From: Cristatella mucedo
Taxonomy: Eukaryota > Bryozoa > Phylactolaemata > Cristatellidae
Assembly (NCBI GenBank): GCA_009760855.2
Contig: WPIO01000060.1
Location: 1,231,501 to 1,295,500, forward strand
Reading direction: 5' to 3'
DNA: 64,000 nucleotides
Numbering within the stretch: the first letter of the stretch is position 1; the number at the start of each line of letters is the position of its first letter. Both the position numbers and the translations under genes were made by a program. The notes beneath the pieces are model-generated. The model was not told the DNA's origin and searched no databases. It was given only the letters and a program-made list of their open reading frames with translations. This document shows positions 1,858 to 55,700 of the stretch, piece after piece.

Positions 1858-1969
1858 GTGTTTAGCGTTTTGCCCCAAGTTTCACCAAGCGCTGGCAGCA
1901 TGCGCTTCAGTGTGCATGTGCACCCACACATGTGCATGTGCAGCCATCTCTGTGCTTGGTGTGCTGCAG

Positions 1970-2268
1970 ATCTGAATCTTAGCGCCGACCTGGTCGGTCT
2001 TGCTATTACCTATACAATGGCTCTGATGGGACTGTTCCAATGGATGGTTCGTCAGAGTACTGAGATCGAGAGCATGATGACGTCAGTCGAGCGAATCGCC
2101 GAATACACTCGACTAGAGCCAGAGGCGCCCCTCGTGACCTCGGTCAGGCCACCACCCGGCTGGCCACGCACTGGCTGCATGAATGCCGAAGATGTGAGCC
2201 TCAGATACTCACCGAGTGAGCCGCTCGTGTTGCACAATGTTTGCTTCCATATAAAGGATGCCGAAAAG
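1970..2268 (+). CDS. ABCC4: ABCC4-like gene A, exon for last TMD2 helix and start of NBD2
   Basis: This 299-nt exon starts in phase 1 after a gtgctgcag acceptor and ends in phase 0 at gaaaag|gtaatt. It encodes the final TMD2 helix (SADLVGLAITYTMALMGLFQ), the coupling segment (RQSTEIESMMTSVERIAEYT), the linker (EPEAPLVTSVRPPPGWPRTG) and the first strands of NBD2 (SLRYSPSEPLVLHNVCFHIK), stopping at the residues just before Walker A. Aligned by memory with vertebrate MRP4, the RQSAEVE-MMISVERV-EYT and RPPP-WP landmarks are conserved. The frame open from 1858 runs upstream of the acceptor but is intron sequence. The matching exon of gene B (46181-45883) has the same length and phases. Confidence 0.93.
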
Positions 2269-2307
2269 GTAATTGCTCTCTCCTTTTGTACCAGGTCGAA
2301 ACTTTTG

Positions 2308-2488
2308 GGTGAGCCGTGATGGTTGACTAGGTAAGGTGGTTGCTTTTCACGACCTCGGTGCCGAGATCATCGGTTCAAATCCTGTTGTGGGCGATCCTGT
2401 ATCGCCGCTTTAAGCGATGGTGATAGCCGTAAAGGCTCTTCTGTCGCTCTACAAAAGAGGCTTTTGAATCACCTAGTATTTTTTTGAT
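2308..2488 (+). mobile_element. S1 tRNA-derived SINE
   Basis: The ~180-bp copy starts ggtgagccgtgatgg and has an A-box-like region (actaggtaaggtggttg), a B-box-like ggttcaaatcc and the body gcgatcc-tatcgcc…aaggctcttctgtcgct. It ends in a T-rich tail. It is one of about nine copies in the window, in both orientations. Confidence 0.8.
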
Positions 2489-3454: not shown

Positions 3455-4922
3455 TACTAATAATAATAATAATAATGCACTTGATAAAGTGCCCTCTGAG
3501 AACTCAATTTATCTCTAGGTGCTTTACATTTGCTGCAAAGGGAAATGCAATTGAATGGTGAGTAAAATCATGCTTGATAAACAAACAAAATGAATAACAT
3601 GGTTAGGGGTGACATACACAGTGTCAGCATGCAAATGTGGTTAGTGGCAGCATGCACAGTGTCAGCACGCATAAGCACATCAAGGACAAATCGCAGGGAC
3701 CCACTAAATGCTGTCCTAAATAGGTGTTTTTAGTTTACCTGTAAATGTGGTCAAGTCAGGGGGATGTTCTGACGCAAGTCAGGAGGGAGTTCCAGGCTTT
3801 GGGAGCATACGAGATAAATGCACGGCCTCCAAAGGATTTGAGGTTTGTACGAGGTATTTGTAGACTGTTGGATTCCGAAAAGCAGGTGGTGCGATGCTTG
3901 GCCTGATGGGGGAGTATATCTGAGAGATAGACTGGAGCCATAGAATGAAGTGACCTAAAAGTGAGCGACAAAACCATGAAATCAATCCGTTGCTTGACTG
4001 GTAGCCAGTGCCGGTCAGCGAAAAGTGGTGTGATGTGGCAACTGCGCCGCTCACGACAGACAAGCCTAGCTACGGAGTTTTGCACCAGCTGCAATTGCCT
4101 GATCACACATGCTGGTAGGCCAATAAGCAGTGAGTTGCAGGAGTCGAGACGAGATGTCACGAATGCATGGACCAACTTGGACGTGGTATCCTTATCTAAG
4201 CAAGCCTGAATTTTAGCAATGTTATGAACCTGAAAATAGGCAGATTTGACTGTGGAGCTGATATGGTCGTCTAACGAGAGGTTGCTTTGGAATATGACAC
4301 CTAGATTCCGAGCTGATTCGACAGGAGATATGCTGGCAGAGCCAATTTTGAAAGTCAGCCTTTCCAATCTCTGGATCACACTGGGTTTGCCCATAACTAG
4401 TAAGTTAGTTTTATCATCGTTAAGTTTTAGAAAATTTGCTGCCATCCATGTGCGGATGTCATCAATGCATGCAGCTAGTGAGTTGAGAGAATTTGAGGTG
4501 CTCGAAGGCTGGGAGGGATCAAAGCAAAGGTACAACTGAGTGTCATCCGCATAGAAGTGAAAGTCTAGATTGTGCTTGGCAATCACATCAGCAAGAGGCA
4601 GAGTATAAACCGTGAAAAGAACCGGACCTAGCACTGAGCCCTGAGGTACTCCATATTTCAGAGGTACTTCAGATGATTTTTGTCTATTCACGTCAATACT
4701 ACGGAGTCTCCCACTGAGATAGGACCTGAACCACTGCAGAGCAGTGCCAGTGATGCCCAGGCGAGATGAGAGGCGCTCTAGAAGAACTTTGTGATCGATG
4801 GTATCAAAAGCTGCCGAAAGATCAAGCAAAACAAGCGGAGACACTCTACCCATGTCTGCATTCCTGAGTAGGTCGTTGTATACCCGAAGCAATGCTGACT
4901 CTGTGGAGTGAATGAGCTGCTT
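3455..4922 (-). mobile_element. CR1/L2-like LINE with long RT ORF (5'-truncated)
   Basis: Minus-strand element of ~1.47 kb whose reverse transcriptase frame is open from about 4922 down to 3756. Visible RT landmarks in order: HSTESALLRVYNDLL, LLDLSAAFDTIDHKVLLERL (motif with catalytic D), GVPQGSVLGPVLFTVYTLPL, the FYADDTQLY catalytic box, and the C-terminal SCHITPLFADRHWLPVKQRI and AWNSLLTCVRTSP blocks. Both metal-binding aspartates of YADD are present. The ORF breaks just before the usual DLTTFK end, and the 3' UTR continues to an (ATT)n tail at 3455-3480. The endonuclease domain and 5' half are missing, so the copy is not autonomous. It sits antisense to gene A in its intron. Confidence 0.93.
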
Positions 4923-5613
4923 TGCTGCTAGTCGAGGCATTAGTCTGACGGCAGCTTTATCGATTGTGAAAGCCAAAGAATGGTTGCATCCAGAACAGTG
5001 CTCTGAATGCCTAATTCCCCTAAGATAGTCGCATTTATTTTTGGAAGCTCCCAGGGTTTTTGCTTGATTGAGCCATGGATGGCTAGACCCTGATCTTGCC
5101 TAAAGCAGCCAATCCAATTAAAGCTGAAGCAGCGTGTCGAGCTGCTTGTGTGGCTGACGAAATCCTCCATGTAGGTCCAAGCATGTCGTCTGGATGTATC
5201 GGCCATGCTTCTATACAAGAATGGCAGTTCGCATTGGTTTCGTTTCGTCCATGCTAGTACGATGCACCCTCTGAACTGTTGTATCACCACCATGCCCAGT
5301 ATACTGTCTGTCCTGTGCAGAAATAGCACACCGATTCTTTTACAATTGTAACATCTAAATCATGCTGAGCACACAGCTCGACTTGCAAAGCTCAAACTAA
5401 GCCGACACGTCATTACCTGCACACCTTCCATCTGCAAAAGTAAAATGTATCTCATTTACCTTCTGAGTTTATTCCGAGCCCTGACACCGAGGTCACTTAA
5501 ATTAAAACTGCCCAATTGTATTCATATAAGACACAATGAAATTGTAAGGTGTGCTTTTACATGTGCCTGCTGGTTAGATGTCTTTATCATCCCACAAGTG
5601 TGTAAAGTTTCTT

Positions 5614-6493: not shown

Positions 6494-6931
<438 letters not shown>

Positions 6932-7144
6932 TAACTGTCTAGCCCACGCTGGTTAGCCGTTTAGCTGTTGTGCAGCCACCCATCACGGTAAACTGTCACT
7001 GTCTCTACGTGAGATTCTTCACCGGTAGCATAGAAAAACCGAGCTATTTTGTCGCTTGAGTGTAGCCTGGTCATTTGTTATCATTAATAGTACTGGCCCA
7101 CGATGTTTGTCTAATATCAGTTGCAGTGCCTTGGAACGGCATGA

Positions 7145-8636
7145 ATAATAATAATAATAATAATATTGCACTTGATAAAGCGCCCTCAGAGAACCTAATC
7201 TCTTTCTAGGCGCTTTACATTTGCTGCAAAGTGATACGCAATAGAATAGTAAGTAAAATCATGCTTGAAAAACAAACAAAATGAATAACATGGTTAGGGG
7301 TTACATGCACTGGGTCAGCATGCAAATGTGGTTAGTGGCAGCATGAACGGTGTCAGCACGCATAAGCACATCGAGGACGAATCACAAGGACCCACTAAAT
7401 GCTGTCCTAAATAGGTATGTTTTTAAGTTTCTTTTAAATGTGGTCAGGTCAGGGGATGTTCTGATGCAGGTCGGGAGGGAGTTCCAGGCTGTGGGAGCAT
7501 ACGAGCTAAATGCACGGTCTCCAAAGGATTTAAGGTTTGTACGAGGTATTTCTAGACTGTTGGATTCCGAAAAGCGAGTGGTACGATGCTTTGCCTGATG
7601 GGGTAGTATATCTGAAAGATAGGCTGGAGCCATAGAATGAAGGGACCTAAAAGTGAGCGACAAAACCTTGAAGTCAATCCGTTGCTTGACTGGTAACCAG
7701 TGCAGGTCGGCGAAAAGTGGAGTAATGTGGCAACTGCGACGCTCACGACAGACAACCCTAGCTGCAGAGTTTTGCACCAGCTGCAATCGCCTGATCGCAC
7801 ATGCTGGTAGGCCAGTAAGCAGTGAGTTGCAGGAGTCGAGACGAGATGTCACGAATGCATGGACCAACTTGGACGTGATATCCTTATCTAAACAAGCCCT
7901 AATTTTAGCAATGTTATGAAGCTGAAAATAGGCTGATTTGACTGTGGAGCTGATGTGGTCGTCTAACGAGAGGTCGCTTTGGAATATGACACCTAGATTT
8001 CGAGCTGATGCAACTGGAGATATGCTGGCAGAGCCAATTTTGAAAGTCAGCCTTTCCAATTTCTGAATAACACTAGGTTGGCCCATAACTAGTAAGTTAG
8101 TTTTATCATCGTTTGGTTTTAGAAAATTTGCTGCCATCCATGATCGGATGTCATCAATGCATGCAGCTAGTGAGTTGAGAGAATTTGAGGTGCTCGAAGG
8201 CTGGGAGGGATCAAAGCAAAGGTACAACTGAGTGTCATCCGCATAGAAGTGAAAGCCTAGATTGTGCTTGGCAATCACATCAGCGAGAGGGAGAGTATAA
8301 ACGGTGAAAAGGAACGGACCTAGCACAGAGCCCTGAGGTACTCCATATTTTAGAGGTACTTCAGATGATCTTTGTCCATTCACGTCAACACTCTGGAGTC
8401 TCCCACTGAGATAGGACCTGAACCACTGCAGAGCAGTGCCAGTGATGCCCAGGCGAGATGAGAGGCGCTCTAGAAGTACTTTGTGATCGATGGTATCAAA
8501 AGCTGCCGAAAGATCGAGCAAAACAAGAAGAGACACTCTACCCATGTCTGCATTCCTAAGTAGGTCGTTGTATACCCGAAGCAATGCTGACTCTGTGGAG
8601 TGATTAGCTCTAAAGCCAGACTGGATCATACTGATG
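7145..8636 (-). mobile_element. Best-preserved CR1/L2-like LINE copy in the window (RT ORF intact to stop)
   Basis: Minus-strand element whose RT frame is open for 415 codons from 8629 to its natural stop at 7382. It starts at IQSGFRANHSTESALLRVYN and passes LLDLSAAFDTIDHKVLLERL, GVPQGSVLGPFLFTVYTLPL and FHFYADDTQLYLCFD. It ends with LTTFKRNLKTYLFRTAFSGS and a stop. A ~235-bp 3' UTR follows, with the gtaaagcgcctagaaagag motif and an (ATT)n tail at 7145-7165. The start of RT, the endonuclease and any ORF1 are missing through 5' truncation. The lack of stops suggests a fairly young insertion. It serves as reference for the decayed copies. Confidence 0.95.
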
Positions 8637-8963
8637 CATAGATATATTAACCTGTGAAGGATTCTCCTTATAGAAATCTTAATCTGGTGCTGTCATAAGG
8701 CCACCTTATTCCCGATTTCTTCCTTACTTTGTACCTACCTGTGGTTATTTGAATCTGGAGAGAGAGAGAGAGAGGGAGAGACAGTTAATTCGTCCTAGCT
8801 ATTCTTGGCAGTTGGTGTATGACGTTTCTCACATGCATCTGTTTTTTTTGGCAGTGAGTTTCGAACAGCCAAGAGTGCTTCCTGCTTCGTATAACTTCTC
8901 CTGTGATGCCTACTCATATTAACCCGGCTGTACTTAAGAGTAAACGTTAGCGATTTTGCAATC

Positions 8964-12394: not shown

Positions 12395-12556
12395 AATTAT
12401 AATTCATTTGTAAAGCACCATACGGGAACTTAAAATCTGTCTTCGCTCGCTACACATACGTTATGGGGCGCCAGTCTACGAACTTGGTCTTTGAATACAT
12501 TAACCCCTTGACCTTGGTCGTACAAGGGTAGAACCTTAACCGCTGGGCAAAACCTT
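12395..12556 (-). mobile_element. Decayed S2 SINE
   Basis: The order on the plus strand is an aaagcaccat…gaacttaaaatctgtct tail complement, a B-box-like complement, and gaccttggtcgtacaagg with accttaaccgctggg at the head. This parallels the S2 copy at 6098-6240 but is divergent. Confidence 0.5.
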
Positions 12557-12574
12557 CTGTTTGTCGTCTTAGAA

Positions 12575-12785
12575 CAGTGGTTCTCAACCTTCCTAATGCC
12601 ACGACCCTTTAATACAGTGCTTCATGTTGCGGCGACTCCCAAACATACAATTATTGTGTGTGAAATGTGGAGATGCTTGTTTTCCGATTTTCCGATTAGG
12701 CGACCCGGTGGAAGGGTCGTTCGACTCCCGAAAGGGTCGTTCGACTCCCAAAGGGGTCGAACGACCCAGAGGTCGAAAACCGCTG
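12575..12785 (+). mobile_element. SPIN-like hAT MITE (211 bp) with perfect 8-bp TSD
   Basis: The element begins cagtggttctcaacc and ends ggtcgaaaaccgctg. These are imperfect terminal inverted repeats (13 of 16 positions match by eye). It is flanked on both sides by TCTTAGAA (12567-12574 and 12786-12793), the 8-bp target duplication expected of hAT elements. The left end (ttcctaatgccacgaccctt, then taatacagtgcttcatgttg) and the right end (ttaggcgaccc, aagggtcgttcgactccc, aaaggggtcg) match, from memory, the consensus ends of SPIN non-autonomous hAT elements. There is no transposase. Inside the right end an 18-bp motif (aagggtcgttcgactccc) is repeated at 12712 and 12732, and a 12-bp perfect stem (gggtcgttcgac / gtcgaacgaccc) spans 12734-12767. 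Frames running through it are not genes. Confidence 0.9.
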
Positions 12786-12793
12786 TCTTAGAA

Positions 12794-22336: not shown

Positions 22337-22431
<95 letters not shown>

Positions 22432-22531
22432 GGGAGAGAGAGATAGCGATAGAGATAGAGATAGAGATAGAGATAGAGATAGAGATAGAGATAGAGATAG
22501 AGATAGAGATAGAGATAGAGATAGAGATAGA

Positions 22532-22629
<98 letters not shown>

Positions 22630-22630
22630 C
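22337..22630. repeat. Compound microsatellite (AG)n-(GATAGA)n-(GAGAGT)n-(AG)n
   Basis: A ~104-bp AG tract is followed by about fifteen agatag hexamers (22441-22531), five gagagt units, and a further AG tract to 22630. The translated 'SLSLSL', 'REREREI' and 'RDRDRD' frames are artefacts of this repeat. Confidence 0.97.
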
Positions 22631-22682
22631 TCAGTTCTCTGAGGGCTATATGCAAATGTATTATTATTGTTATTATTATTCG
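22631..22682 (+). mobile_element. LINE 3'-tail fragment fused to the microsatellite
   Basis: The stretch ctcagttctctgagggctat…tattattattgttattatt is the final ~50 bp of the LINE. The AG tract has apparently grown out of the tail's gaaagagatt segment. Confidence 0.6.
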
Positions 22683-22805
22683 AACTTATGCACAAATAGT
22701 AAAATTTGCTCTAGCAAATGTAAAGGTTACAATGCATGCATGCATTGCATGCACAGAGCTGGGAAACCATAAGCAGTCACATAGGGCATGTATGCACTCA
22801 AGCAG

Positions 22806-22984
<179 letters not shown>

Positions 22985-25325: not shown

Positions 25326-26545
25326 CATTCTAGCTTTAGGGCTAATCACTCAATAGAGTCAGCATTGCTTCTGGTGTTTAACGACCTGCTTAGCAAAGCA
25401 GACTTAGGAAGAATATCTCTGCTTGTTTTGCTCAATCTTTTGGCAGCTTTCACTTATATGCGGATGACACTCAGTTGTACATATGCTTCGATTCTTCCTA
25501 GCCCACGAGCACGTCGAATTCTCTCAACTCCCTTGCTGCATGTATTGATGACATCTGCACATGGATGGCAGCATATTTTCTTAATTTGAATGATGATAAA
25601 ACTAACTTACTAGTTATGGGAAAACCAAGTGTTTCAGAAATTGGAAAGGCTTACGCTCAAAATCGGATCTGCCAGCAAATCTGCTGTTGAATCTGCACGA
25701 AATTTAGGTGTCATGTTCCAAAGTGGCGTTTTGTTAGCTGACCACATTAGCTTCATAATCAAGTCTGCCTACTTTCAACTATGTAACATTGCTAAAATTC
25801 TGGCTTGTTTAGATAAAGATACCACATCTAAGTTGGTCAATGCATTTGTGACATCCTGTCTTGACTTCTGTAACTCACTGCTTGCTGGCCTACCGACATG
25901 TGCAATCAGGCACTTACAGCTGGTGCAAAACTGTGCAGCTGGGCTTGCCGGTCGTGAGTGTCGCAGTTGCCATATCACACCACTTCTCGCTGACCTGCAC
26001 AAACTACCGGCCAAACAATGCAGCAACTTCACGATTCTGTCGCACTCACTTTTAGGTCACTTCATTCTTTAGCTCCAGCCTACCTGTCAGGTCGACTGCC
26101 CCACCAGGCTAAGCCTAGTATCACTTGCTTTTCGGAATCTAACTGTTTACCTATACTTCATACAAACCTACAATTCTTTGGAGACCGTGCATTTAGTTAG
26201 TATGCTTCCAAAGCCTGGAACTTACTCCCGACTTACATCCCGACATCCCCTGGCGTGACCACATTTAAAAATGAATTAAAGACACACGTATTTATGACAG
26301 CCTTTAGTGGGTCCATGTGATTCGTCCTTTATGTGCTAATGTGTGCTGACACTGCGACATGCTGCCACTATCCACACTCGTATGCTGAACCTGCATGCAA
26401 TCCCTAACTATGTGATTCATAATGCTTATCAAACATGATACCACTCACCCTTCGATCTCGCTTTCTTTGCAGCAAATGTAAAGCGCCTAGAAAGAGATTG
26501 AGTTCTCTTGGGTCCTTTATAAAGTGGATCATTTAATTATTGCAT
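25326..26545 (+). mobile_element. CR1/L2-like LINE with internal RT deletion
   Basis: The RT frame begins SFRANHSIESALLLVFNDLL and LVLLNLLAAF, then jumps directly to the YADD region (cacttatatgcggatgacac, shifted frame). About 100 codons including the GVPQGS box are missing. After a frameshift it continues through KLERLTLKIGSASKSAVESA, SAYFQLCNIAKILACLDKDT and CRSCHITPLLADLHKLPAKQ. The 3' UTR ends gtaaagcgcctagaaagag…taattatt near 26545. Confidence 0.88.
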
Positions 26546-27456: not shown

Positions 27457-27966
<510 letters not shown>

Positions 27967-32665: not shown

Positions 32666-33221
32666 ATCAGCTACCGTAACTTGATCATTGATATGAATAT
32701 CTTACAAGCCTTCATTCTTATTGTGACTGGGTCCTTGCACCAATACTTTCAAAGCCTAGAAGACCCCAGACACTTTTGTCATGACAATCTCTGACTAGTT
32801 GGGATTAAAGAAGAAAAACAAAGACGCGACTATTTCAGAGCAGTGTGCTTTGTTATTTACCTTGGTTTTTGGGATTGCAATATGAATTTTTTGCAACCTA
32901 TTTAACTCGCTTAATTTACTGCTCACTTAAAGTTTCCCAAGCGTCCAATTAAACCTTCACAAGTGCAGAAATTCAATAACTTGAAGATATATCATTTACT
33001 TAAGATTAACATGTGCCGTCATTGTGAGGTAGCCACTGAAACCAGCCAAAATCGGTCGCCTTATCCTAGATGTTGGCAAAGGTCACCTGACGTCACCTAA
33101 ACCACATTAAAACTGTGCACTCCTAATCTGAACAATTAAAGTAGCTAAGCAGCTTTGGATATTGCCATGTTAGCGAAAATCACCGGTTGGCTATGGTCTG
33201 CGAACAAGCATGCAAGCGTAC

Positions 33222-33640
33222 CTATGATCGACGTTAGCGGTGGCCTCATCGACTACCAGTATTCGGTTATGGCATAGCATTGCCCTTGCCAGACAGAGCA
33301 GCTGCCGTTGGCCGACGCTGAAGTTGGATCCGCCCTCTGAAATGGCACTATTCAAGCCACCCGGAAGCTCATATACAGTAGCTGCCAGCTGCACCTGCTT
33401 CAGTGCATCCCACAATTTGGCATCATCATGCTCAGTGAATGGGTCGAGATTGCCACGAACAGTCGTGCTAAATAGCACCGGATCTTGAGGTATTATAGAC
33501 AGCTTGGAGCGCAAATCGTGCAGGCCGATATCATTGATGCAGATACCATCAATAAAGATCTTTCCCGTTGGCTCATACAGCCGAAATAGCATGGCCAGAA
33601 GTGAGCTCTTGCCACCGCCTGTGCGACCACAAATGCCAAT
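33222..33640 (-). CDS. ABCC4: ABCC4-like gene B, NBD2 core exon
   Basis: This 419-nt minus-strand exon (phase 0 start after catttcag, phase 2 end at cat ag|gtacgc) encodes the NBD2 catalytic core. It shows Walker A (GRTGGGKSS, with Gly where gene A has Ala but still matching GxxGxGKS), [20 protein letters not shown] with the Q-loop, [20 protein letters not shown], the signature NFSVGQRQL, and Walker B plus D-loop ([14 protein letters not shown]). DHR replaces the usual DPR after the D-loop. No frameshift or stop is present. Exon size and phases equal gene A's 6494-6912. Confidence 0.96.
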
Positions 33641-34564
33641 CTGAAATGAAACGAGTAAGGTGGCCTAGCATGTTGACTCCGAGTTAACTGCAAACTGGAC
33701 AAGAAGAGTTTAATATACTGCAGCTACGTTTACTTTTAACGTTATCCCCTCAGGGATTTAGAGAACATTTTGTAATCAGGTTGACAACAGTATAAAAACC
33801 ATACTTTTACTGGTGGCTCTCTTCTTTATCTCAAGTGAAGCTCACAGTTCCGACCGAGAGTCCAGGACTGGCCACATCTATAGGAAAAGTATGGTTGCAC
33901 GAACTTGCCGCGCTTATAGCAGAGCCGATTTATGTAATTTTTAGGTATCGACTGCTTTGCTCAGAGTCGTATTAAGCAAGCTTTTCATCGTAGGTGACTT
34001 CTATGCTGCATGCTTTCTCAACGTGACGTCCAAATTCGGAAACGATCCGTTGCTAAAAGTATGTCAGCTAAATGGTTGAGCCGGTCTGAGAATTTTAATG
34101 CAGACGTTCATGAATGCCTGATTCAGAGGAAAATTATTGGATGAATCCCTTTAACTACTAGATGATTGTGTTTGAAAGGTCCGCTAAGGAAAGACCCAGT
34201 AAAGTCGCCACAGCGAAAACGGCAATGGGTCGAGATACTGTCGCGATATGCAACGACAAAGTCATGTGGCGGTTGACTTTCCCTTTACAGTGGGGCCGGG
34301 AGCTGGGCCGCCTACTATTCGTACGCCCTCTAACCGTCACCAATACAGAAATAATGCTTCAAGTCCACTCAATTATTAACCGCCGACTATGTGTCACAAT
34401 AGTACTACAATTTTTAGCTGCAATCGATTTATTCATTTCAGGTTTTCACCCGCCCATAAGAAAAATCTTATGGACGTTTACCCTACATAAACTAGGCTTG
34501 TCTTGCGGCCAATATTAAAATCCTGGCTCCGCCGCTAGAAATATACATAACTTTCGACCAAGGC

Positions 34565-35849: not shown

Positions 35850-38850
<3,001 letters not shown>

Positions 38851-39276: not shown

Positions 39277-40128
39277 CACATTAAGGACGAATCACAGGGA
39301 TCAACTAAATGATGTCCTAAACAGATGTTTTTAAGTTCTTTTTAAATGTAATCAAGTCAGGGGATGTTCTGACGCAAGTCGGGAGGGAGTTCCAGGCTTT
39401 GGGCGCATACGAACGAAATGCACGGTCTCCGAAGGATTTGAGGCTTATACGAGGTATTGGTAAACTGCTGGATTCCGAAAAGCAGGTGGTACGATGCTTG
39501 GCCTGATGGGATAGTATATCTGAGAGATAAGCTGGAGCCATAGAATGAAGGGACCTAAAAGTAAGCGACAAAACCTTGAAGTCAATCCGTTGCTTGACTG
39601 GGGGCCAGTGCAGGTCGGCGAGAAGTAGTGTGATGTGGCAACTGCGACGCTCAAGACAGACAAGCCTAGCTGCAGAGTTTTGCTCCAGCTGTAATCGCCA
39701 ATTGCACATGCCGGTAGGCCAGCAAGCAGTGAGTTACAGAAGTCAAGACGGGATGTCACAAATGCATGGATCGACATGGTATCCTTATCTAAACAAGCCC
39801 GGATTTTAGCAATGTTATGTAGCTGAAAGTAGGCAGACTTGACTGTGGACCTGATGTGGTCGTCTAACGAGAGGTCACTTTGGAACATGAAACCTAGATT
39901 TCGAGCTGATTCAACAGGAGATATACTGGCAGAGCCATTTATGAGCCACAGCTTTCCAGTTTCTGAATCATACCGGGTTTACCCATAACCAGCAAATTAG
40001 TTTTGTCATCGTTTAGTTTTAGAAAATTTGCTGCTATCCATGTGTGGGATGTCATCAATACATGCAGCAAGTGAGTTGAGAGAATTCGAGGTGCTCAAAG
40101 GCCGAGAGGGATCAAAGCATATGGATAA
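39277..40128 (-). mobile_element. CR1/L2-like LINE, RT C-terminal part
   Basis: The minus-strand frames include SLDDHIRSTVKSAYFQLHNI, CLERRSCHITLLLADLHWPP, VKQRIDFKVLSLTFRSLHSM and AWNSLPTCVRTSPDLITFKK. Further 5' it shows DDKTNLL and the SRPLST region before breaking off near 40128, just short of the YADD box. A few indels are present. Confidence 0.88.
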
Positions 40129-45040: not shown

Positions 45041-45882
45041 ATCCAGGCTCTTTAAGGTATCAGCCGAACGGAGGCTGATTTTACGGACTTAGGACAAACC
45101 GGTATTTGGAGAAGCATTGCAATCTTAGTTATGGCAGGAATAAGTCTGCCTGCCTGTGAAAGCCGATGAGGGGTCGTATAGGGTCTTCTGCAGATGAGCT
45201 CCCAGTAATAGAATTTTCTTTATGGTTCCTCCACTCCCTTGCTCTGGCATTCACACCAGAAACAGTTTTTCCTCCTAGCTGATTCCTATCGCCAACCAGC
45301 TCTTCTACGTTTGATTAAATACACAGTTAAATAACTTCGAAGCCCTTGGGGATTGTCCCTCCCGTTATTGCGCTCCTGAAGTTTTGAACTCATTACAGAA
45401 CGCCATCGCCTCATCTCATTCCAAGACATTAAAAAAAAGAAGCTATTGACCGACCTAATCAGCACAGCTGCCATTGGGAGTTGTGGATGAATGAGCACTG
45501 TAGCACTGCACAGTTTGCGACTGAGAGAAAAAGGTGTAAGCTTGCTTTTTGATAGCAGTCCTACGAAATTTTCCTTTTTCTATAATGCCTTGTTTGCTTA
45601 CCTGTGATTACTTCACGGCTTGTTACTAGCCAGTTGTCAGGCCGGTAGGGCCAAAGGCCACATTTCGAGCTTTAGCATAGAGGCCAAAGCAGGCTACTCT
45701 GGTATTTATGAATGCCGCTCTGGGAATGATTGCTCGGATGCCAATGCGTCTTAGCTGTAACTTATCTTAAAGCGAGTTTAAAGGCACCTGGATTCAGATC
45801 AACTCTCTTACGGTGTCAGACGAACGCAAATGGTAAGTATTAATATTGCTTTCCGACTGAGCCATACGATCCATGCAATTAC

Positions 45883-46181
45883 CTTTTCGGCACTCCGTAC
45901 ATGGAACAGCAGATTCTTTAATACAAGTGGCTCACTTAGTGAGTATCTGAGGCTGACTTGCTCGACATCCAGGCAGCCTCTCTGGGGCCAGCCTGGCGGG
46001 GGCCTGAGTGAAGTGACGAGAGGCGCCTCTGGTTCGAGTCGCGTGTACTCGGCAGCTCGCTCCACGGACGTCATCATGCTCTCGACATCAGCACACTGTC
46101 GACCTATCCTTTGGAACAGTCCCATCAGAGCCGTGACATATGTGATGGCTAAACTGACCATGTCTGGTCGGAGAGTCAGAT
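45883..46181 (-). CDS. ABCC4: ABCC4-like gene B, exon for last TMD2 helix and start of NBD2
   Basis: This 299-nt minus-strand exon starts in phase 1 after a cttattttgccacag acceptor and ends in phase 0 at gaaaag|gtaatt. It encodes the last TMD2 helix (MVSLAITYVTALMGLFQRIG), the coupling region (RQCADVESMMTSVERAAEYT), the linker (EPEAPLVTSLRPPPGWPQRG) and the first NBD2 strands (SLRYSLSEPLVLKNLLFHVR). The paired gene A exon has identical length and phases. The QRIGRQ segment replaces QWMVRQ of gene A. No disabling change is seen. Confidence 0.93.
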
Positions 46182-47935
46182 CTGTGGCAAAATAAGCCAG
46201 CCCAGAGACAGATGGAGATACATACTATAGTATGCAGACGTCGCCGAGCAGCACAAAGATATAATAATAAGAATAATGCACTAGATAAAATACCCTCAGA
46301 GAACTCATTCTCTTTCAAGGCGCTTTAGATTAGCTGCAAAAGGAAATGCAATTGCATAGTGAGTAATATCATGTTTGATAAACAAACAGCATGAACAACA
46401 CGGTTAGGGGTGACATGCACAGGGTCAGCAAGCAAATGTGGTTAGTGGCTGCATGCACAGTGTCAGCACGCATATGCACATGAAGGACGAATCACAGGGA
46501 CCCACTAAATGCTGTCCTAAATAGGTTTGTTTTTAAGTTCTTTTTAAATGTGGTCAAGTCAGGGGATGCTCTGACGCAAGTCGGGATGGAGTTCCAGGCT
46601 TTGGGAGCATATGAACTAAATGCACGGTCTCTAAAGGATTTGAGGTCTGTGCGAGGTATTGGTAGACTGTTGGATTCCGAAAAGCAGGTGGTACGATGCT
46701 TGGCCTGGTGATATTGCCGTCTCTTAGCAACACACCACGGCACAGGTGTAGCTTATAAGTACACTGCCATATAAATAGTCGCTTCTGCAATACCAACGGC
46801 AATTTTGCATGGGTCAATAATAGCTTATCTGTGAAAATTGTTTTCATAAACTACACGTGATGTAGAACGGTTTTCTTGGCCGATCGTTAAGCTTTAATTT
46901 AGTAGTCACGATGTTTGTAGCAGAAACATGCACATAATTATGTCTGCTTGACGATTATTGGTGTAGCGAGCTTGCACATTAGCTAAAGAATCTGAAGAGC
47001 CCGTTCATGCAGAGGGAGCAGTTTGTCTGGCAAGGCTGATGCAAGAGAATGAGGCAGATATTCTAGCTAATAATAATATGTTAGCATGTCTAAACGCGAT
47101 TTGACAACACTACTGGTACTTTACCACGATGATGAGCTTGACTTGCCAAGGTAGTGAATGCCTCATAACTTAAAATGCAGAAACGCTACCTCTTGTCACA
47201 GTCAACTGTGGTTATTCAGCCGCAATGTGACGAAGAACTAAAGCACAATCTACAGATGGCACAGAGTAATGATATACATGGCTTCCCAGTTATCAGTAAG
47301 GCCCGGAAGCTGAGAACAAGTACACATTCAACTCTACAAATATCTGCGTTATGGTCAGGATGCAAATATTTATGGGGATAAATAAAGTAAGAAACTTTTA
47401 ATTATATTCAGTAGTTAAAATGTGAGCACCCCTGAAATAGTGAACACATCATGATCTCGGACGCCTCGAAAATTGGAAGGGGTAGGCAATTAATGAAATC
47501 GTTTGCAACTACAACTAAGGTCAATTCTCTTAAAACTATATATCAAGCAGGCACATCCAAATTCTTATTTGGGCATATATTGAGGCTCTATTGCATACAC
47601 TTTCTTTCATGCACAATATGAAGCATTTTCGCCGGCTTAATTTCATTCGAAGTGCACAGATTATTCATGCCACCGGAAGCACGGGCATTCGATATGAATC
47701 CTAACTACCAACTATTGCCGTCATATTTCTGGAATGGAGAGGGTTTCAGCCAATATCTGCTGTGGAGATAATCCCAATGTCTATCACTGTTCAGTTGGCA
47801 AGGTGAATTTTCTGTAAACTTGATTCAAGTCGTAGCAGCCAGTATGACTATGACTGAAATGCAAAATAGTGAATGACTGCAGACTCGTGTACGGTGATAT
47901 GTATGGCGATCCTCGATGAAAACAATGGTGCTTAC
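46182..47935 (-). other. Intron of gene B (1.75 kb)
   Basis: The GT donor is at 47935-47934 (aaaaaca|gtaagc). It contains a truncated LINE end (46264-46710). Nothing was recognised at 46720-47930. Confidence 0.85.
46264..46710 (-). mobile_element. CR1/L2-like LINE 3' end
   Basis: Minus-strand copy with FSESNSLPIPRTDLKSFRDR, AFSSYAPKAWNSIPTCVRAS and PDLTTFKKNLKTNLFRTAFS before the stop near 46492. The 3' UTR runs to a taataataag tail at 46262. It is 5'-truncated at ~46710. Confidence 0.88.
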
Positions 47936-52707: not shown

Positions 52708-55700
52708 AATGGTTTGACGAATTACCACAATCCACTGCAATCCAATACAATCTACTCGAATCAGGCTAACGTCGACCAGACATAAGTATTGCCGAGCTTT
52801 AATTTTACACTGATATTGTTGTACAGGCTAGAATTTATCTGACCATAAAATTTCATGTTGCTGTGCACGCACCCACTTATTCACATGATGTTTGGCACAG
52901 GACGCATGTAACACAATTTACTTCAATATATCACAATCCATCGCAATCCATACTAGTTCATGTCAAACAAACCAAAAATCGGCTGCACCAGCTCCAAATC
53001 GTTTGGAATATCAAACTGTGCTACACGTAAGATTGATCCAGAGAATTTCGCTTGAAACCGGTCAAGCGTTCTCACGAAGTCCACTGAAATAACATCGAAG
53101 TGGCCCAGGCCAATACTGAAATCCACGACAATGCACCGCAATCCGATGCATTACACCACGCAACGAATGAAATCATGTTTGAAAAGATCCTTTTTTGATT
53201 GCATATGATAGCAAACTCTGCGAAAACTGCACTTACAAAATTTGCTCTCATTGGCACGGCCGTTCTCGTGCAATGGCCTGCAATCGACTCAGTAGCACTG
53301 GCCAGTACTGCACTCCACTTCAGTTCACCAAATCAACCGAATAAAAAATCGAAATAGATTGCGCTAAGCTGCAGTTTTTATTGCACATTAAAGTGAACCG
53401 TGTTGTCTAGACAACCAAGTAAATAAAAAAAATTCGCATCCTCACACTATGGCAATGGGCGGCTATCGTCAGAAAAGACCTGGAAAACTAGCACAATCCA
53501 CTACATTCCACTGCAAATCATCCTCAAATAGAAATCGCGAAGCTCTAATTTGACATTGCATTAGGACTAAACTCAGATCAAAGTCCACACACGAACTTTC
53601 GCTCCATTGTGCACACGTAGTCTTATGCAATGAATTGCAATCGACTGCAACGGCCCGGTCCCATACACCAGTCTGCTTCAATCCAATCGAACCCACTGCA
53701 ATCTGCCGCACAGCGACCAGGCTTCGTATACTAGAAGCTCTAATTATGATTGCAAGTTGCTCTACTCTTCGGTTTTGCGTACTCGTATAACTTCACGGTT
53801 AATGCCTTGGAATTCTGCCGCAAGGAACTGCAATCGGTTGCAACTGCCGGGGCCAGTAGTCAATCTACTGCAACCCACGGCAAAATGACCAGAATACGTA
53901 CACTTTTAAGCTCTAATAGTGGTTGCACGTTGCTCTAATTTTTGGTTATTGTGTCATCCCACAATTTCACTGCAATCACCTCGACCATTCGGCAGCAATG
54001 CACTGCAATTGACTGCAATGGCTTGGGCCAATACCTTAATAATCATAATAATAATAATGCACTTGATAAATCCCCTTCAGAGAACTCAATCTCTCTCTAG
54101 GTGCTTTACATTTGCTGCAAAGGGAAATGCAATTAAATGGTGAGTAATATCGTGCTTGGCAAACAACATGAATGCCATGGCTCGGGGTGACATGCACAGG
54201 GTCAGCATGCAAATGTGGTTAGTGGCAGCATGCACAGTGTCAGCACAGATAAGCACATGAAGGGCGAATCACAGGGACCCACCAAATGCTGTCATAAATA
54301 GGTGTTTTTAAGATCTTTTTAAATGTGGTAGGTCACGGGATGTTCTGACGCAGGTCGGGAGGGAGTTCCAGGCTTTGGGAGCATACAGAACTATATGCAC
54401 GGTCTCCATAGGATTTTAGGTTTGTACGATGTATTTCTAGACTGTTGGATTCCAAAAAGCAGGTGGTACGATGCTTGGCCTGATGGGGGAGTATATCTGA
54501 GAGATAGGCTGGAGCCAAAGAATGAAGTGACCTAAAAGCTAGCAACAAAACCTTGAAGTCAATCTGTTGCTTGACTGGCAGCCAGTGCAGTTCGGCGAGA
54601 AGTGGTGCAATGTGGCAACTGCGATGCTCACGACAGACAAGCCTAGCTGCGGAGTTTTGCACTAGCTGCAATTGCCTGATTGCACATGCTGGTAATCTAC
54701 AGCAATCTAAGAGAAAAAGCCCTAAAATCGACTCCGCAATCTTCCAGTTGTTAATGCATATTAAAAAAGCACACTGGTTAAAGTCAACCACATCATTTTA
54801 AGCAGTTGCGCATGTATAATCTTTGGCAATGCATGGCAATCTACGGCAATGGCTCGGCTCACGGCAGCAACAAACTACAATCCGTGGCAAGTCCACCCTA
54901 CATTAGCTGCACGAAGTGCTGATTGTCATCGCATTCCACATTTATCTGTGCTAAAAGTGAAACTCTAGGACTTTCAAGCTATTGTACACATTATTCGTCA
55001 ACGATACAGGGCAATCGACACCAATGGCAGGGACCAATACTACATTGCGTGGCAAATTGATGAGAAATTGGCTACACCAAGCTACAATTCTCATTCCACG
55101 TGACATCTTACTGCGTGCACACATATTTTCAATCCTTTCAATCGGCTCTGAACGTTCAATCTTGGGCAATTCATTGCAATCGACAGCAATGACCCGAGCA
55201 AATACGGAAATCCATTACGATATATCGCAAATCACTAAGAACTGACTGGGCCAAGATCAAATATATCTTACCTGTCACAGTCCACTGTGTTGGATGTGCA
55301 ACCAAATCTTTTCAACTAACCGTGTGCGTACAATCGCGAGTAGTCAATGGCAATCGACAGCAATATCCTTGGCAAATACCCTAATTCCCGCAAAGTAAAG
55401 AGAAATAGCCAGTGCGAAGCCCTAATTGTCATTACATATAACATTCAGCTTCGTCCAAAGTAAAAACATGGAATTTTCAAGATGCTAAGCCGGCTAACTG
55501 TCAGCAATGCACGGCAATCTACAGCAATGGTAGGGGCCGATGGGCCATTCCGTGAAAAATTGACAAGATTGGCTGCAATAAACTGCAGCTCTCATTCCAC
55601 AAACATGTAACTGTACGAACGCATAATTTTCACTTATTGTGCGCGGTCAATCGAAGGCAATGCACGGCAATCGATGGAAATAGACGGCAATGGCCCGGGG

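Follow-up and report, generated by a model that had tools for sequence, protein, structure and literature searches.

A SPIN-type hAT element with a deleted interior in a lophotrochozoan genome, probably acquired by horizontal transfer

A short insertion at 12575-12785 of a 64-kb stretch of genomic DNA, C561:1231501-1295500, here called the window, raises the question of whether its inverted ends mark it only as some hAT transposon or as a member of SPIN, and, if the latter, how that lineage reached the present host. SPIN elements are known to cross between distant animals, and invertebrate hosts beyond those discussed below are known. SPIN (Space Invaders) and SPIN_NA of tetrapods are reportedly the subject of Pace 2008, and SPIN elements are said to be that of Gilbert 2010 and 2012. 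A sequence-only reading had taken the insertion for a SPIN-like non-autonomous hAT element received by horizontal transfer, and had named likeness confined to the terminal inverted repeats as the outcome that would speak against this label.

The insertion has the anatomy of a non-autonomous cut-and-paste element, with its ends kept and its middle deleted (Table 1). It starts with CAGTGGTTCTCAACCT and, inward from the opposite side, with CAGCGGTTTTCGACCT, both being ends of the CAG(T/C)GGTT type, and no Pfam domain was found in the single long frame across it. As claimed beforehand, this copy is a 211-bp element with TCTTAGAA on both sides; the caveat is that its inverted repeat is imperfect, the 16-bp ends agreeing at 13 of 16 positions here and at 15 in the consensus of the family. 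With the base composition found here, two 8-mers at a fixed offset would be identical by chance with a probability of 1.7e-5, but with a large family at hand (see below) a chance origin of this one duplication is irrelevant. Scanning the window with up to four substitutions allowed per end revealed no second copy, the sole 5' and 3' ends being those of the insertion itself.

Table 1. Parts of the insertion and its target-site duplications, in window coordinates
Feature	Position	Strand	Details or basis
SPIN-family non-autonomous hAT element (MITE)	12575..12785	+	211 bp, against 187 bp in the family consensus
Left target-site duplication TCTTAGAA, TA at positions 4-5	12567..12574	.	letters of the copy and target pattern of the family
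Right target-site duplication TCTTAGAA	12786..12793	.	exact repeat of the left one
5' terminal inverted repeat, 16 bp	12575..12590	+	13/16 against the 3' one
3' terminal inverted repeat	12770..12785	+	comparison of the ends
5' SPIN end (consensus 1-81)	12575..12655	+	translation runs on in Gekko, Myotis and Xenopus ORFs
13-bp middle (consensus 82-94)	12656..12668	+	unmatched in named vertebrate ORFs; Xenopus ORF has 12 bp here
3' SPIN end (consensus 95-187), with insertions private to the window copy	12669..12785	+	peptide matches
Tandem repeat, 20-bp unit x2.4, bearing extra GGGTCG motifs	12712..12759	+	repeat scan

Because the family consensus measures 187 bp, the length of 211 bp belongs to the window copy alone, its excess consisting of several insertions, mainly a 20-bp unit, AAGGGTCGTTCGACTCCCAA, present at 2.4 tandem copies. 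Two further copies, L039 and L041 (209 and 216 bp), also duplicate a stretch around GGGTCGTTCGACCCC, and L056 (216 bp) has different insertions, so that the length of the family varies by local duplication. The motif CGACCC/GGGTCG occurs seven times in the consensus against a mean of 0.09 in shuffled sequence (maximum 2 in 2000 shuffles); for the window copy the count is six and the shuffled mean 0.11. Other hAT elements have repeated subterminal transposase sites, and by analogy with these the motifs are likely transposase contacts.

The sequence to the left of the insertion (about 12405-12554) belongs to a dispersed repeat of older date, with matches of 71-78% identity at many other sites. 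In a search with the two flanks joined (best 40 of 169 candidates) no row spanned the insertion point as an empty site would; the matches recovered were the locus itself and the older left-flank repeat, ending by about 12560 and mostly near 12554. Elsewhere in the window, related pieces of a non-LTR retrotransposon were recognized by eye at 3756-5099 (-), 7382-8692 (-), 25614-26072 (+), 39317-39978 (-) and 54333-54797 (-); the second contains a 436-aa frame with an RVT_1 domain, whose named relatives, mostly fish, are about 50% identical, one contig matching at 94% over 54%. Exons of ABC transporters (PF00005) lie on both strands, at 6494-6934 (+) and 33191-33664 (-), and the frames 1858-2319 (+) and 45808-46224 (-) resemble them by eye with no Pfam match; together these may represent MRP/ABCC-type genes in a dispersed cluster. 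Arrays of AG, CA and AT repeats of about 100 to 510 bp each occur within 22337-22984, 27457-27966 and 35853-36166.

The sequence-only reading had asked for a count of genomic copies, and the search of the host genome (572 Mb in 688 contigs) revealed a high-copy family. An exact 21-bp piece of the 5' end was found at 383 sites (181 forward, 202 reverse), and both ends occurred 137-166 bp apart at 249 sites (128 and 121 by strand), with no site for the reversed-pattern control in either case. The window element used as a DNA query gave 44 matching rows from 40 scored of 1877 candidates, and when the consensus was the query (best 40 of 2336 candidates) the top copies were 94-96% identical over the full length. 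Sixty copies were read, comprising the window copy, the 39 next best by score and 20 drawn from 100 listed sites of the 383; the majority sequence of the first 40 is the 187-bp consensus. Median Kimura two-parameter (K2P) distance to this consensus was 6.5% in those first 40 (the top-scoring copies, from which the consensus itself was built) and 10.6% in the 20-copy sample, for which the exact 21-mer was required and in which three copies (L110, L119 and L122), kept in the medians, align in their 5' part only and may be truncated or longer elements. All 60 span 2-17% from the consensus, and the copies look old and decayed. The window copy lies 11.0% away. The suggestion that this copy could help date its arrival is unsupported, since no date follows from a single copy that lies at 11% K2P and has duplications of its own; an age drawn from the spread of the family (the 10.6% median of the 20-copy sample) would need the substitution rate of the host.

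Flanking 8-mers alike at zero or one mismatch were present in 37 of the 60 copies; of these 37, 35 have a T as the fourth base of the 8-mer and 33 an A as the fifth. The other 23 have no duplication at this threshold at their assigned ends, and in diverged copies without duplication the end assignment may be off. The target of the family is thus nnnTAnnn, a hallmark of Buster and SPIN: the parts of the hAT classification on which we draw give nnnTAnnn as the target of TcBuster and place SPIN and Buster together in one of two hAT subfamilies (PMC3499496). With its 8-bp target-site duplications and short terminal inverted repeats the family belongs to the hAT superfamily, and by its target, as that portion of the source defines the group, to Buster.

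Membership in SPIN itself was assessed by joining three-frame translations of the consensus and searching them against 5.8 billion proteins at a cutoff of E 1. This comparison is one of peptides read from non-coding DNA. Of 37 candidates, 20 scored E 1 or better; the six of these 20 that carry organism names are all from tetrapods (three from Myotis myotis and one each from Gekko kuhli, Staurois parvus and Xenopus tropicalis). Over the 5' end, vertebrate open reading frames (ORFs) align along 27 codons, with 26 identical in Gekko kuhli, a record labelled UNVERIFIED_CONTAM by its source, and 25 in Myotis myotis. At the 3' end, a Myotis ORF matched at 28 of 30 codons, the first 28 all being identical. 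Weaker matches came from Xenopus (26/42), Staurois (23/26) and the third Myotis ORF (24/29). Hence vertebrate sequence has counterparts of about 81 bp of the 5' end and at least 84 bp of the 3' end, and the likeness, at the peptide level, reaches 27 and 28 codons deep, far past the terminal repeat. From their hosts and from known SPIN sequence we read the vertebrate ORFs, which carry no SPIN label, as SPIN copies. The name SPIN given to the insertion from its letters holds up.

The Xenopus ORF is informative about the middle of the element as well. After the 5' part it has 12 bases, where the consensus has 13. The next 17 codons align with the consensus from base 95 onward and agree at 46 of 51 bases; the best of 2000 shuffled peptides reached 38. 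The frog therefore carries a short derivative built almost like the 187-bp form, and the stretch of the consensus middle without a counterpart shrinks to about 13 bp, the 3' end being matched from about base 95 by the Xenopus ORF and from about base 103 by the Myotis ORF. The view that the whole middle of about 22 bp is private to the 187-bp form was accordingly dropped. Two other searches contribute little: a literature text search for the terminal sequences brought up two mouse papers containing the 15-mer alone, which are not used as evidence, and exact scans for the ends in viral_contigs and genome_contigs, which are virus and prokaryote collections, gave no match.

Longer copies are likewise present in the host. 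As a search pattern we used what we take to be the interior of mammalian SPIN 3' of the 5' end; a bat ORF (P0246) agrees with it, reading FVATS after the shared part. The pattern occurs at 68 host sites at three or fewer mismatches, four of them exact (examples of the 68 lie around C39:778371 and C77:668155), and its continuation, a 33-mer, at 50 sites under the same limit, again with four exact, the controls being zero throughout. In line with one of the 68 interior sites lie 35 of the 50 continuation sites. On contigs C1-C99, six of 18 interior sites have the exact 5' 21-mer 59-63 bases upstream, as expected, and 12 have no exact 21-mer at that place. With controls at zero, these sites show that the host has a longer class with vertebrate-type interior beside the 187-bp form.

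A transposase that could have moved the family was sought with a TcBuster protein sequence. Of 881 candidates 75 were scored, with 28-34% identity to the query, and the 25 loci fetched from these (L082-L106) form one family, about 2.7 kb long where complete, with ends CAGGGGTGTCCAAC. Ends and duplication could be paired in 12 of the 25 loci, and all 12 duplications are TA-centred. Best pairwise identities within this family are 93-96%, and two of its 25 rows are without internal stop. None of the 25 fetched loci contained SPIN ends (consensus search, E 0.05), and no vertebrate-type interior site was present within 6 kb of any of the 75 rows. The search for a full SPIN transposase proposed earlier was thus carried out and yielded no autonomous SPIN with these ends among the 75 scored of 881 candidates and 25 fetched loci; the enzyme may have been lost, decayed or missed. 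The CAGGGGTGTCCAAC family was rejected as the parent, having no subterminal sequence in common with the element. An abundant 640-aa hAT (PF05699) was likewise rejected as a partner. Nothing similar to the element turned up in its 30 fetched loci, which may not extend to its 5' tip; this hAT closes with ...TACAGCCCTA on the 3' side, and its match in the PDB is Hermes. This second family (L009-L038; L078:2604-4526 (-)) is of Ac/Hermes type, with a BED finger and a hAT dimerisation domain. Fifty-five of 138 PF05699 rows score an identical 76.8 bits (one has 78), 15 of the 55 have an open frame of 635-642 aa, and the main aligned pieces of the fetched loci are 99.1-100% identical, so that it looks like a very young family in a recent burst.

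Taken together, the element very probably belongs to the SPIN lineage of Buster-type hATs as a non-autonomous copy with a deleted interior, and that lineage was probably acquired horizontally before it spread and decayed. Directly observed are the high copy number, the ends with their nnnTAnnn duplications, and the tetrapod likeness well beyond the terminal repeat. Horizontal transfer is the most likely explanation of the last of these: non-coding DNA is not expected to be so alike since the protostome-deuterostome split, even with constrained tips, and identity at 26 of 27 and 28 of 28 codons would thus be unexpected under vertical descent. This part of the sequence-only reading stands as the favoured account, drawn from cross-phylum identity, whatever the path and direction may have been. 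Mechanistically, a full-length relative would make the transposase, which would bind the terminal repeats and the CGACCC/GGGTCG motifs, excise the element and join it to staggered breaks at a TA-centred octamer, giving the 8-bp duplication. The SPIN lineage would have entered the ancestors of this lophotrochozoan, spread largely as 187-bp deletion derivatives beside the longer class, and then decayed.

Three other explanations were weighed. The ends might be true SPIN ends, with the 187-bp form mobilised by the resident CAGGGGTGTCCAAC Buster transposase instead of one from SPIN. That family is abundant, 2.7 kb long and has the CAGNGGT tip in common with the element; its nnnTAnnn sites in 12 of 12 paired loci and the lack of a SPIN transposase among the loci scored would fit, but beyond the tip the ends are unlike, with no match to the consensus in its 25 loci at E 0.05, and the longer vertebrate-type class implies that more of the SPIN lineage arrived than the short form. 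We consider this improbable. Slightly less probable still is vertical inheritance of a Buster-type MITE native to lophotrochozoans, with a SPIN likeness that would be only the conserved terminal repeat CAGNGGTT. Buster-type hATs are indeed at home in this host, as the 2.7-kb family with ends CAGGGGTGTCCAAC and nnnTAnnn sites attests, and no autonomous SPIN was found; yet the likeness to vertebrate ORFs extends 27 and 28 codons inward, which in non-coding DNA would not be expected since the protostome-deuterostome split, and the vertebrate-type interior occurs at 68 sites with a control of zero. Contamination of the assembly by vertebrate DNA, suggested by named relatives that are bats, gecko and frogs, can be dismissed almost entirely, as the copies sit on many contigs, some of 14 to 25 Mb, the 60 that were read differ in their flanking 8-mers and lie 2-17% K2P from the consensus, and the mitochondrial contig is lophotrochozoan.

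The last point refers to a 21,008-bp contig (C688, L079) with a G+C content of 0.44 over 4 kb and the gene order cox3-atp6-cox1-nad3, in which all names except cox1 were assigned by eye. Among the 120 matches listed for its COX1 (table 5), the top one is a contig at 95%, and named relatives (gastropods, cephalopods and a nemertean) reach at most 80-82%. In a 39-row COX1 tree the host and the 95% contig stand together on a branch of 0.23 and join coleoid cephalopods at a weak 43. As judged by COX1, the host is a lophotrochozoan.

Compared with SPIN and SPIN_NA of tetrapods and Rhodnius, by peptides rather than reference DNA, the family is alike in its ends (about 81 bp and at least 84 bp), in its nnnTAnnn duplications and in having short deleted copies; the vertebrate-type interior also occurs here in a subset, and the Xenopus ORF comes near the 187-bp spacing. 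It differs in its lophotrochozoan host, in about 13 bp of the middle and in that no transposase was found. SPIN_NA_12_RP and SPIN_NA_13_RP are listed for Rhodnius in the portion of the report consulted (PMC11614815), which also contains OposCharlie1 and ExtraTerrestrial; these, like hAT-6_XT (PMC11008031, in the section cited), share the horizontal mode of spread and are set apart by description as different families. For the snail Biomphalaria glabrata, the relevant part of PMC5440852 reports a SPIN-like hAT of about 1,000 copies with identity to SPIN and mentions no intact transposase; set beside our family by description only, it shares SPIN identity and a lophotrochozoan host. TcBuster of Tribolium has the same nnnTAnnn target and, in the passages used of PMC3499496, the same transposase family as SPIN, whereas the TcBuster-like loci fetched from the present host have other ends.

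In the literature searched we found no SPIN report tied to this genome, and we make no claim of priority. Since SPIN has already been published from a bug and a SPIN-like hAT from a snail, the host is a new one for a known, horizontally spread element. Frog and host have nearly the same short derivative, and the host also has the longer form; on these grounds one could imagine that SPIN travelled among aquatic animals as a package of short form and helper, and that lophotrochozoans served as the reservoir or relay in which it persisted before tetrapods were entered or between such entries, a scenario we regard as rather unlikely. The view of how SPIN works is left unchanged. The finding adds a lophotrochozoan host whose COX1 is not close to the gastropod, cephalopod, chiton, nemertean, phoronid and annelid rows sampled, together with a large set of copies with measurable divergence and two structural classes, the short one like that of the frog.
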